DNA of 64,000 nucleotides from contig NZ_JTFC01000031.1 of NCBI RefSeq assembly GCF_003991225.1, forward strand, positions 248,001-312,000, given 5' to 3'. Under the pieces are notes generated by a model. That model saw nothing but the letters and a program-made list of their open reading frames with translations. It made no database searches and was not told the origin of the DNA. Source of the stretch: Candidatus Kurthia intestinigallinarum (lineage in GTDB: Bacteria; Bacillota; Bacilli; Bacillales_A; Planococcaceae). A program made the position numbers and the translations under genes. Position 1 is the stretch's first letter, and each line of letters opens with the position of its first letter. Of the stretch, positions 15,240 through 18,928 are shown piece by piece.

Positions 15240-15866
15240 ATGAAACTCGCCCGACTTATCGTACCATGTGTACTAGCGACCGCATTGCTTCAAGGCTGTG
15301 CCTCTAGTTCATCAACAAAAGAAACGTCAACAGAAGATAACAAGACGACTTCGAATGCCGCAACGACTTCTACGGAAGATACGAATGCTTCTTTAAAAAA
15401 TAATAATGTAGCGAATCCAACAGCCTTTTTAACAGAAACTGTAGCAGCAGCGAAAAAAGGCCAGCTTCCAAATGTGCCATTTACAGTTGGTCAAACAACG
15501 TATACACAAGTGGAAGAACAATGGGGAAAACCAAACTTATCTTTTTTAAATACAGCGAATTATGTACAATACCGTGTAGCAAAGAAAGAACAAATTGCTT
15601 ATGGGGTGGGTATTGGACGCGGCCATATTTTATATGAATTACGTGCATTTGTAGCAGATGATGGTAAAACACCATTATCAAGCATTTCTTTTAAGGCAAT
15701 TAAAAAGCAATTAGGTCAGCCAACTATTAAAACAAAGCTAGGACCAGACCGTATTTGGAGCTATGCAGCAGGTAATTTCATGTTGAAATTCACCGGCTCA
15801 ACTAAGGACCATACGTTACATCATATTTCTGTCTACAGTAAAGTTTATGATGATTCGAAGCAATAA
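15240..15866 (+). CDS. YjgB-like lipoprotein (DUF4309)
   Basis: This 208-aa protein has a lipoprotein signal peptide with lipobox LLQGC, acylated Cys 20. A Ser/Thr/Asn-rich linker (about 21-60) and a C-terminal domain (about 62-205) follow. The domain resembles DUF4309 (B. subtilis YjgB), with the VGQTTYTQVEEQWGKP segment. It is anchored on the outer face of the membrane; function unknown. GGAGGGG lies 5 nt before the ATG and a TATAAT -10 lies at 15190-15195. It reads toward the orphan cobalamin riboswitch. Confidence 0.8.
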   Translation: MKLARLIVPCVLATALLQGCASSSSTKETSTEDNKTTSNAATTSTEDTNASLKNNNVANPTAFLTETVAAAKKGQLPNVPFTVGQTTYTQVEEQWGKPNLSFLNTANYVQYRVAKKEQIAYGVGIGRGHILYELRAFVADDGKTPLSSISFKAIKKQLGQPTIKTKLGPDRIWSYAAGNFMLKFTGSTKDHTLHHISVYSKVYDDSKQ

Positions 15867-15893
15867 AATAATACTTAGACACCATCTGAGTAT

Positions 15894-15930
15894 AAAAAAG
15901 CAGGAACGCGACAATCGCTTCCTGCTTTTT
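15894..15930 (+). terminator. Terminator of the lipoprotein gene (symmetrical)
   Basis: AAAAAAGCAGGAA with TTCCTGCTTTTT around a 12-nt loop. A/T runs on both sides mean it could stop transcripts from either direction. Confidence 0.85.
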
Positions 15931-15940
15931 GTATTTTTTC

Positions 15941-15976
15941 AAAAAAAAGAGACCGGCGCAAGGCCAGCCTCTTTTT
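15941..15976 (-). terminator. Minus-strand terminator downstream of the orphan riboswitch
   Basis: On the minus strand GAGGCTGGC pairs with GCCGGTCTC over nine positions (two G-U) around a 5-nt loop and is followed by eight T. On the plus strand the same positions give A-C mismatches, so it is built for minus-strand RNA. Confidence 0.7.
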
Positions 15977-16112
15977 CCGCTTGAAGATGATTGATTCATA
16001 GTTAGAATTTGGGGAGTTCATAACGGAATGCAAATATTCATCATTGAAGGGATTCAAGCGATTGAGTATAGGTGAGTTGAAGTATCTATACTTATCTCTC
16101 ACAATAAAGTTT

Positions 16113-16145
16113 AAAAAAACAGCCCTTCACACAGAAGCAGCTGTC
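16113..16145 (-). terminator. Putative expression-platform terminator of the cobalamin riboswitch
   Basis: Minus-strand stem ACAGC/GCTGT extended by CTTC/GAAG across a small bulge, 5-nt loop, followed by seven T. It lies about 60 nt past the aptamer, the usual place for a riboswitch-controlled terminator. Confidence 0.7.
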
Positions 16146-16205
16146 ATCTACAAAATAATCTGTAGCCAACATCTTCCTATCCTCGTAGGTAAACTAGATG
16201 CTTTT

Positions 16206-16378
16206 GCATACGGCAGGTCTCCTGGCTCATACCTCTCGTCTTCTCGCCCTTCCCGCTATAAAGCAGTGGTTATGCAAGTTTGACCGGTATTTACAGTTGC
16301 GGGACAGCGTTTGACTTTCACAAACTTCCCTTTTAAGTAAAATCACTTTGAAGATTTTACACCGCGTGCTGCATATTC
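16206..16378 (-). ncRNA. Cobalamin riboswitch with no downstream gene
   Basis: The minus strand carries the conserved parts of the AdoCbl/B12 aptamer in order. These are an AAAGGGAAG segment, GTGAAAGTC, TGTCCCGCAACTGTAAAT, AACCACTG, CGGGAAGG, GACGAGAG and the B12 box AGCCAGGAGACCTGCC (16213-16228). A loop segment TTGCATA (16271-16277) is complementary to TATGCAA just after the B12 box (16204-16210), a candidate switch pairing. The element has its own promoter and is followed by two minus-strand terminators, but no gene on that strand lies before the convergent lipoprotein gene. The small frame at 15875-16102 lacks a ribosome site and runs through both terminators. Confidence 0.9.
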
Positions 16379-16392
16379 GATTTACATTTGTA

Positions 16393-16421
16393 AGTATACC
16401 AAACGTTTACTGATTTCGCAA
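16393..16421 (-). promoter_or_regulatory. Promoter of the cobalamin riboswitch RNA
   Basis: Minus strand -35 TTGCGA (16416-16421), a 17-nt spacer and -10 TATACT (16393-16398), placed directly after the glutathione peroxidase stop codon. Confidence 0.7.
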
Positions 16422-16423
16422 TA

Positions 16424-16900
16424 TTATAATAATTTCTCAATCGCCTTTTTTAACGATTCTGGTTTATCTTTTGACGCAAAGCGCTCGACAACCTTCCCTT
16501 CACGGTCAACTAAAAATTTCGTGAAGTTCCATTTTACACTTTCGCTACCTAAAAAGCCTTTAGCGGACGATGTCATAAATTTAAATACCGGCTCCGCGTG
16601 CTCACCGTTCACATCTGTTAGTTCATGCATTGGAAATGTCACGCCGTAGTCACGACGACAAGCAGTAGCCGCTTCCTGCCCACTGTCTAGTTCCTGCTTA
16701 AATTGATTTGATGGAAAACCTAATACGACAAAGCCTTGATCCTTGTACTCTTCATAGAGTTTTTCTAAGCCACCAAATTGTGGTGTGAAGCCGCATTTTG
16801 TTGCGGTGTTCACCACTAAAACAACCTGTCCTTTGTATTTCTCAAGTGAATACTGTTCCCCGTTTTCAAGTGTCGCGTTAAAATCATATAAATTTGTCAT
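16424..16900 (-). CDS. Glutathione peroxidase family protein (Cys type)
   Basis: This 158-aa thiol peroxidase (GpxA/BsaA-like) is probably thioredoxin-dependent and reduces hydroperoxides. The active-site motif NTATKCGFT is at about 31-39 with catalytic Cys 36. The Gln/Trp/Asn partners appear in GFPSNQF (about 64-70) and VKWNFTKFL (about 124-132). AGGAGG lies 8 nt before the ATG; a TTG directly before it is not needed. A resolving Cys candidate is the CRR segment near residue 86. Confidence 0.9.
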   Translation of the reverse strand: MTNLYDFNATLENGEQYSLEKYKGQVVLVVNTATKCGFTPQFGGLEKLYEEYKDQGFVVLGFPSNQFKQELDSGQEAATACRRDYGVTFPMHELTDVNGEHAEPVFKFMTSSAKGFLGSESVKWNFTKFLVDREGKVVERFASKDKPESLKKAIEKLL

Positions 16901-16912
16901 CAATTCATCCTC

Positions 16913-18928
16913 CTATTTCGCTAATACTGTTCGTTTTAAATAGCTTGCAACGCGTTCGTAATCTGGATAAATGGTGGATTCATTAATTTCAATTACATCC
17001 AACCATTCCTGTAAATCTGCCTTGACGTCTGACGGTAGAATATACCGAACTTTAATACCATTTTTCGCTTCCTCTAATAGCACTTCTAGCATATCGATTA
17101 GACGTGGGTTTAAAATATCCTCATAAACTGCTAAAAAGGCTTCAATCGAGCGCACATCATCATTTTCATTTGAAGTACGATAGCGAATTTCCTCAATTTT
17201 ACGCTCACATTCATTGCGCTCTAATAAGCCGTTAATAATAAAGGCCCCGTGCTGCCGAACGATGCGCGTATTATTTTGAATCGGACGTACGACTAAAATA
17301 TCAAGCATATCCATCGGGTTAATATTTGATGTATAATTAACGCCCTTTTTACTCATTTCATGGACAAGCTTATGCACCGATGCGTGGCTATTAAAGTCCT
17401 CAATCATCGTATCTCGCACTGCTAAAACACTTTTTCGCTTCGAGCTCATTCCATTTACTAAAAAATCATCAATGACTTTGTTGAGGCTCGTCAAAATACA
17501 TTTAATCGCATGTACTTTGATTTTATTTTTGTCATTGTACGATAGCAGTGGCAGCGTCGCGAGCATTTCAGCTTTATCGCTATCATAATACTCAATACCC
17601 CGCTCTTCCTCCGCAAACACTAAAAATTCTCCATCCATGTCAGGTTCCATCTCTGTAGCAAAAAATAATGCGATTAACGGGCTACTCGTTAAATCGAGTA
17701 AACGCGTCGGTAGTGAGTAATGTTGCATCGATGCAAGCACCTCAAGTCCTCGACTATACTGTGACAATTCCTCTGAGCATTTAATATGCAAATCACGATA
17801 CATTTTTTCTTCCGACTCTAGCCATTTCTGCTTCCTATAAATACTTGGTGCTAAGCTATAGTTCGAATCACTATGTCCACGGTACATGAAATGATATTCA
17901 TCAACCTCATACTCATCATACTGACGTGATTCATCAAATAACCGGCTATAAAACGGTGTAATATGCTGTAGCTTCACGAAGATTTCATTTTGATCGTCAT
18001 CACTATCTAAAATATTACGCAGTGTATGACTTGATTCAAATTCGCCGAGATGATTTAAAATCCACTCCGATTCTTTGCGATACGCCCTCAGCTGCCATTC
18101 ATTCGCCTCTTCATGTAAAATCCGTCCATCATATTGCTGCTGCTTGCGATTTTGATTAATAAGCATTTTATTAAAGGCACTCTCATCTTCAATAAACTCA
18201 AGCTGATACATCATCGCATTGTACATATAAAGCTTCTTATGATGCGTGGTCGTGCGGAAAATCATAAATTGAAATACTTTTTTCAAGCGCTGCATAAAGT
18301 GACTTTTCAGTGCACGGTTGTCCTGCTCAAAGGCATTTAAGTCGCGGTCTAACTCAATTAGTCGCGATTTTAAATTACGAATGCTTTTTGAAATATCATT
18401 AATTTTTCGATTTAAGGAGGACCGTTTTCGACGCGATAATTCCAGCTTATCATGCAATTCCTTTTGCGCGAGCTCCTCTGAAAGAATCGCCTGGTCATCT
18501 AATGCCTCTTGCTGCTGTATTTCTAAATTAAAACGTTGTAGCATCCGTTCATTCATACGGTCTAGTGCTTGCTGCTGCTTCGCAATCGTTGTTGATAGCG
18601 TCGCATATTCCTGCCTACGCTCTGTGTATAATGCAAATAATTCACGTTGCTTTGTATTGTTATCTGAAATCAGTTGTCGCTGTCCTTCTCGCTCGCGCAA
18701 ATACACTTCATAGTCCGTTTTAAGTAAGGTAACCGCTTCTAATAAGCGTTCAAAATATAGTTTACTAATCCGTTCGCCACTCTTTGTAAAACGTGATTCA
18801 ATCCACGCTTTCATCTCCTCAATGGAGGTAGCATCTAGGCCATGTGTGCGTAAATAATCATCGACGCACACGTAATTATTCATATCGAGAAAGCTACCAA
18901 TATGTTCAAAGTATTTTTCAGTATTCAT
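16913..18928 (-). CDS. Large coiled-coil protein with FRG domain
   Basis: This 671-aa soluble protein has an N-terminal helical part (1-75), a long predicted coiled coil (about 75-215, rich in Gln/Glu/Arg) and a middle region. An FRG domain follows at about 346-566: YRGHSDSNYSLAPSIYR, QHYSLPTRLLDLT, ALFFATE and RQHGAFII are its hallmarks. About 100 further residues at the C-terminus are unassigned. The FRG domain is named for its Phe-Arg-Gly motif (here Tyr-Arg-Gly) and has no firmly known biochemical role. GGAGG lies 7 nt before the ATG. It stands alone between the peroxidase and a LysR gene, so context does not help. Confidence 0.8.
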   Translation of the reverse strand: MNTEKYFEHIGSFLDMNNYVCVDDYLRTHGLDATSIEEMKAWIESRFTKSGERISKLYFERLLEAVTLLKTDYEVYLREREGQRQLISDNNTKQRELFALYTERRQEYATLSTTIAKQQQALDRMNERMLQRFNLEIQQQEALDDQAILSEELAQKELHDKLELSRRKRSSLNRKINDISKSIRNLKSRLIELDRDLNAFEQDNRALKSHFMQRLKKVFQFMIFRTTTHHKKLYMYNAMMYQLEFIEDESAFNKMLINQNRKQQQYDGRILHEEANEWQLRAYRKESEWILNHLGEFESSHTLRNILDSDDDQNEIFVKLQHITPFYSRLFDESRQYDEYEVDEYHFMYRGHSDSNYSLAPSIYRKQKWLESEEKMYRDLHIKCSEELSQYSRGLEVLASMQHYSLPTRLLDLTSSPLIALFFATEMEPDMDGEFLVFAEEERGIEYYDSDKAEMLATLPLLSYNDKNKIKVHAIKCILTSLNKVIDDFLVNGMSSKRKSVLAVRDTMIEDFNSHASVHKLVHEMSKKGVNYTSNINPMDMLDILVVRPIQNNTRIVRQHGAFIINGLLERNECERKIEEIRYRTSNENDDVRSIEAFLAVYEDILNPRLIDMLEVLLEEAKNGIKVRYILPSDVKADLQEWLDVIEINESTIYPDYERVASYLKRTVLAK

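Follow-up and report, generated by a model that had tools for sequence, protein, structure and literature searches.

What does a cobalamin riboswitch control when no gene follows it? This question is raised by a locus in the window (the whole 64,000-nucleotide stretch of the Candidatus Kurthia intestinigallinarum contig NZ_JTFC01000031.1 that was analyzed), where a B12 aptamer and two terminators lie on the minus strand between a glutathione peroxidase gene and a lipoprotein gene (Table 1). In total, the genome (a 3.93 Mb draft) contains ten cobalamin riboswitches, and several of the others precede B12-linked genes, e.g., metE (L002), cobT (L001) and cbiM (L003); these three genes were named from their translations, and metE was confirmed by Pfam. 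For the riboswitch without a gene, the sequence-only reading of the locus had left two answers, the recent loss of a B12-linked gene or the synthesis of a small B12-responsive RNA.

Table 1. Features of the riboswitch locus and its neighbours (positions in the window).
Feature	Position	Strand	Remarks
Glutathione peroxidase gene, upstream	16424-16903	-	RNA directly downstream in 6/7 species
Sigma-A type promoter TTGCGA-17-TATACT, extended -10 (TG)	16421-16393	-	consensus match; nearest relative G003 likewise
Cobalamin riboswitch aptamer (RF00174)	16381-16195	-	108.3 bits, E 3.5e-26
P13/L13-like hairpin CCUA-CGAGGA-UAGG	16189-16176	-	invariant in 7 species
Antiterminator hairpin UGUUGGCUACA/UGUAGAUGACA	16171-16142	-	covariation across species
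T1, intrinsic terminator	16145-16113	-	early termination expected when B12 is bound
Seed hairpin GUUA(U)GAA-CUCCCCAAA-UUCUAAC	16024-16001	-	9-nt C-rich loop; invariant bases and covarying stem
Seed CUCCCCAA	16016-16009	-	complement: UUGGGGAG (metF-metH leader)
T2, terminator closing the long RNA	15979-15940	-	-21.7 kcal/mol; use on the + strand possible as well
DUF4309 lipoprotein gene, convergent	15240-15866	+	neighbour in 4 species only; RNA does not overlap

The elements that had been recognized from the sequence alone were all recovered. A covariance-model search matched the aptamer to RF00174 end to end (model positions 1-189), with 108.3 bits against a gathering score of 31.5, and the orthologous aptamers in six other Kurthia score 106-123 bits. 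The proposed promoter is present, with TG before its -10 hexamer, and the same promoter layout is seen in G003, the nearest relative; the consensus match is weak when taken alone (11 matches in the region vs 6.8 expected by chance). Transcription is predicted to start near 16386, giving RNAs of about 270 nt to T1 and about 445 nt to T2; of the two sizes suggested earlier, 240 nt is slightly short. The second minus-strand terminator, T2, folds with a z-score of -5.1, and none of 200 shuffles was as good. When 15860-16430 was searched permissively against Rfam, nothing above chance level was obtained besides Cobalamin. It should be mentioned that an FRG-domain protein (PF08867) of 671 aa is encoded upstream of the glutathione peroxidase gene (16913-18928 of the window, minus strand); it is highly conserved and occupies the same position in G003 and G005, and no counterpart was seen at the remaining loci.

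The expression platform is of the transcriptional type, as the 5' arm of T1 (GACA) is included in the 3' arm of the antiterminator and the two structures compete for it. In the antiterminator, 97% of the cells of the alignment are paired, and two pairs show double changes (four double-change cells). T1, the terminator already noted behind the aptamer, has a folding energy of -12.3 kcal/mol, which 4 of 200 shuffles equalled (z -2.95), and ends in a U7 run at 16119-16113. It is present in six of the seven species that carry the locus and is degenerate in G006 (L014), where the U-run is lost and the seed loop described below is one A shorter; because of the lost U-run, B12 control of the RNA is doubtful in this species and may be relaxed. 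The CCUACGAGGAUAGG element between aptamer and antiterminator was considered as a special ANTAR- or CsrA-like hairpin and rejected, since it is the riboswitch's own P13, a motif that also follows many other cobalamin aptamers.

To this locus correspond, in a search with 15867-16430, orthologous loci within the genus with an identity level of 73-92%. The succession of aptamer, P13, antiterminator, T1, spacer and T2 was found in seven of eight Kurthia genomes and in 0 of 253 further members of the family; the genus is represented in the named genome collection by K. huakuii, K. sibirica, K. gibsonii, K. zopfii, K. massiliensis and K. senegalensis. The surroundings are less constant. In G006 the upstream neighbour is not a glutathione peroxidase gene, and the convergent lipoprotein gene is confined to clade A, clade B having a different neighbour. 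The sequence of T2 differs between lineages, yet a terminator is present in all seven species.

The stretch behind T1 has diverged among the species except for 11 bases, GAACUCCCCAA, that are invariant in all seven. They belong to a hairpin whose loop, CUCCCCAAM, comprises 9 nt (8 nt in G006) and occurs as CUCCCCAAA, as CUCCCCAAC or, in G006, as CUCCCCAA. In the window species this hairpin is weak (-1.1 kcal/mol). In its stem, however weak there, several pairs have both partners changed: 79.7% of the cells are paired vs 70.2% in shuffles, the covariation score was reached by none of 500 shuffles, and every slid version of the stem scored lower. Such a pattern, with a covarying seed hairpin in a diverged stretch, a T2 kept as a terminator and no conserved reading frame, characterizes a noncoding RNA rather than a peptide or a gene that was lost.

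The loop is complementary to the leader of the metF-metH operon, which comprises the B12-dependent methionine synthase and carries an S-box riboswitch. GGGGAG is present in this leader in all seven species with the RNA, and in six of them it is extended to UUGGGGAG, directly behind the S-box terminator and with differing flanks. The longer motif is absent from the leader of G004, the eighth Kurthia genome, and from the 18 leaders of this gene examined outside Kurthia. The metF leaders of G001 and G007 contain UUGGGGAGUUC (11 nt), and a second site in G000, GGGGAGUUCAUA, is a 12-nt perfect match to this strain's own RNA. In six species 32-36 nt separate the site from the start codon downstream, and it is not at the Shine-Dalgarno sequence; a site at the metF Shine-Dalgarno sequence is found in G000 and in G002, in the latter as UGGGGAG. 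In G000, G001, G002, G006 and G007 hardly any dinucleotide shuffle gave a duplex energy as good as that of RNA and leader (0-15 of 500); in G003 and G005 the match is only 8 bp long and 314 and 73 of 500 shuffles, respectively, were as good. By its distribution, the metF-metH leader is the broadest predicted target.

Together with the flanking GAA, the seed (GAA-CUCCCCAA) is also complementary to GGGGAGUUC, which is found at the Shine-Dalgarno sequence of icmF, encoding an adenosylcobalamin-dependent mutase, in three species and of mbcS in four. Pairing with messages of B12 enzymes had been hypothesized before the unbiased search was made, and the match at icmF first came to light in a targeted inspection. 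In the search for GGGGAGTTC before start codons, for which all eight Kurthia genomes were used, 39 matches were found in the seven RNA-bearing genomes vs 3 for the reversed pattern, a number that includes overlapping starts and the RNA gene itself. The real gene starts among them belong to (i) icmF (G000, G003, G005), (ii) the first gene of the metF-metH operon (G000), (iii) mbcS (G000, G002, G003, G005), (iv) a B12-binding radical-SAM protein (G002), (v) a ChsH2-like OB-fold protein (G000, G003) and (vi) two single-species membrane or lipoprotein genes. Three of the approximately seven real target families are B12-dependent enzymes or their operon (hypergeometric p of about 1e-7, from rough family counts), and such an enrichment is unlikely to have arisen by chance.

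As a background, about 1,390 genes were taken from 0.8 Mb each of G000 (704 genes) and G005 (687 genes). The start region of icmF is the only one with GGGGAGUUC or GGGGAGTTC; about 2.5% of these regions contain GGGGAG, which is kept in both members of only six of 569 ortholog pairs. In mbcS it is present in six of the seven species. GGGGAG resembles a Shine-Dalgarno sequence, and part of the icmF and mbcS match could reflect ribosome binding alone; both sites are absent in G006, and the icmF site is poor in clade B. MbcS produces isobutyryl-CoA in Staphylococcus aureus (PMC10026030), the substrate of IcmF, so the two genes share a pathway.

Several other candidates were looked at. The methylmalonyl-CoA mutase gene mutA was rejected as a target, its Shine-Dalgarno sequence being GGGGGGAAG, without GGGGAG, in all the species that were read. 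In G003, two GGGGAGUUC matches beside another riboswitch were discarded because they are not at gene starts, and a function of the plus strand, with GGGGAG as a Shine-Dalgarno sequence, because the downstream plus-strand frames are not conserved. A genus-wide search for UUGGGGAG directly before start codons revealed no conserved target apart from coaBC (G000:C175:430199-430217), where the motif is at the Shine-Dalgarno sequence in G000 and G005; this gene may be an additional target or the match may be due to chance. Separately, a terminator-like hairpin with a U-run stands directly before the Shine-Dalgarno sequence of icmF in several species (L129-L134), which hints at attenuation.

The sign of the predicted regulation has to be considered here. 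The position of the metF site in six species, at a distance from the start codon and beside the S-box terminator, would also suit an RNA that base-pairs and yet activates its targets, or a metF leader acting as a sponge that titrates the RNA. We hold this to be rather unlikely: the icmF and mbcS sites cover the Shine-Dalgarno sequence, where repression is predicted, G000 and G002 have such a site at metF as well, and a repressed metH is what the interplay with metE would suggest.

In bacteria that possess both methionine synthases, B12 is known to turn metE off. The metE gene is present in all seven species with the RNA; it has a cobalamin riboswitch in six of them, and in G002 the contig ends upstream of the gene. 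In G005 two cobalamin riboswitches in opposite orientation, about 180 bases apart, were observed upstream of metE (L317:2586-3128). G004 (loci L182, L184, L277, L308), the only one of the eight Kurthia genomes without the RNA, is also the only one in which metE was not found, and its metF, mbcS and icmF leaders are without GGGGAG; these absences rest on one imperfect genome, a fragmented draft of 450 contigs with 8% contamination. Because G004 is nested inside clade B in the metF protein tree (support 97/97), the data suggest that the RNA and metE were lost jointly. This fits, since an RNA silencing MetH would not be affordable for a species in which MetH is the sole methionine synthase.

Anatomy, conservation, complementarity and co-occurrence among the species, all of which were read from the sequences, point to one mode of action, with repression by a B12-repressed small RNA that base-pairs with the messages of B12 enzymes, i.e., a "cobalamin-sparing" response; we give this reading a probability of roughly 0.7. 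We infer that the unit is transcribed and responds to B12 as follows. With B12 bound, the aptamer and P13 would form and T1 would terminate transcription, so that only the leader of about 270 nt, without the seed, would be produced; MetH, IcmF and MbcS would be made and metE would be off. When B12 is scarce, the antiterminator would capture the 5' arm of T1, and read-through to T2 would yield the RNA of about 445 nt, whose hairpin would display the CUCCCCAA loop. The proposed targets are the S-box-controlled metF-metH, icmF (isobutyryl-CoA mutase) and mbcS; in the cell, this loop and the adjacent GAA would pair with GGGGAG(UUC) in their leaders or at their Shine-Dalgarno sequences and block initiation. 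Enzymes devoid of their cofactor would no longer be translated, and metE, under its own B12 riboswitch, would take over methionine synthesis. The fuller proposal, in which this riboswitch-gated RNA acts in trans and runs a cobalamin-sparing regulon (metF-metH, icmF, mbcS and possibly the B12-binding radical-SAM enzyme in one species) with a sign opposite to that of metE, and was lost with metE, we regard as rather probable.

Riboswitch-controlled noncoding RNAs of Listeria and Enterococcus had been named as a parallel for the locus. The control logic of this analogy holds: Rli55 (Listeria) and EutX (Enterococcus) likewise have a B12 aptamer and a terminator before a noncoding RNA, with a long form of about 450 nt in the absence of B12, and they limit B12-dependent metabolism when B12 is absent, as is predicted for Kurthia. 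The mode of action does not carry over. Rli55 and EutX sequester the antiterminator EutV via ANTAR hairpins and lie beside the eut operon, whereas the Kurthia RNA has no eut or pdu neighbour and bears a conserved C-rich loop whose complement is present in unlinked mRNAs. Behind T1, dual hairpins with ANTAR hexaloops were not found in the seven species; the CUCCCCAAM loop is the sole conserved element there.

That the RNA is B12-controlled and noncoding and acts through protein binding, the C-rich loop being a protein site, is nevertheless suggested by the precedent of EutV binding and by the similar sizes (Rli55 has 200 nt with B12 and 450 nt without). We consider this unlikely, as the 9-nt loop differs from the ANTAR hexaloop and a protein site does not predict the complement of the loop at the leaders of B12 enzymes; none of the eight Kurthia genomes gave a match to the ANTAR domain, a weak argument, as the control genomes gave none either.

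A B12-repressed RNA that pairs with its targets can be compared with several other systems. AspocR (Rli39) of Listeria is also a regulatory RNA that is governed by a B12 riboswitch and limits B12-dependent metabolism (the latter predicted in Kurthia); it differs in being a 1.4-kb cis-antisense RNA to pocR, while the Kurthia matches are elsewhere in the genome. No cis-antisense overlap was found at the locus, where T2 ends at 15940 and the convergent gene at 15866, with another neighbour in clade B. FsrA of Bacillus subtilis and IsrR of S. aureus are iron-sparing small RNAs that halt the synthesis of enzymes lacking their cofactor (PMC9410917). They share with the Kurthia RNA a C-rich single-stranded or loop motif directed at Shine-Dalgarno regions, a likeness of working only, and in the Kurthia RNA such a conserved loop motif is complementary to the start regions of functionally linked mRNAs. 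In contrast, they are controlled by Fur at the promoter and not by a riboswitch, their cofactor is iron, and a sequence relation to the Kurthia RNA was not found with Rfam. In Streptomyces, the small RNA scr5239 and the metE B12 riboswitch similarly act on the choice between MetE and MetH; scr5239 represses metE, is not riboswitch-controlled and leaves metH unaffected, and the same study calls the control of MetH in low B12 unknown (PMC4365011). Listeria SreA and SreB are riboswitch RNAs reported to base-pair in trans; there a SAM riboswitch is concerned and the terminated form is the effector, whereas in Kurthia the read-through form would carry the effector loop. No report of a similar RNA was found in the open-licence literature.

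The alternative of a lost gene, finally, can be answered from the relatives. A degenerate remnant, i.e., a riboswitch and terminators left behind after their B12-regulated gene had gone, would account for the window, in which no gene follows. It is highly improbable, since the gene-less layout is common to seven species of two clades, the antiterminator and the seed hairpin covary, and T2 is kept despite its changing sequence. None of the orthologous Kurthia loci carries a directly controlled gene, and the lost-gene idea, including the recent loss suggested earlier, was rejected. The view that no credible gene follows the riboswitch stands, as no open reading frame of at least 15 aa between T1 and T2 is conserved across the seven species. 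Least credible of all is a short B12-regulated peptide, for a 75-aa frame does span the seed in the window, but G007 has no frame of at least 15 aa and the frames of the other species differ in length, position and sequence. Thus, of the two original answers, the small RNA is strongly favoured by the genus-wide gene-less layout and by the conserved structured element after T1.

The proposal makes testable predictions, namely the seed, the targets and a sign opposite to that of metE. If it is true, it would give a concrete answer, in one genus, to the question of whether and how metH goes down when B12 is missing. The RNA would then be a vitamin-cofactor counterpart of the iron-sparing small RNAs, and its riboswitch would directly control a seed-pairing small RNA whose read-through form is the effector.
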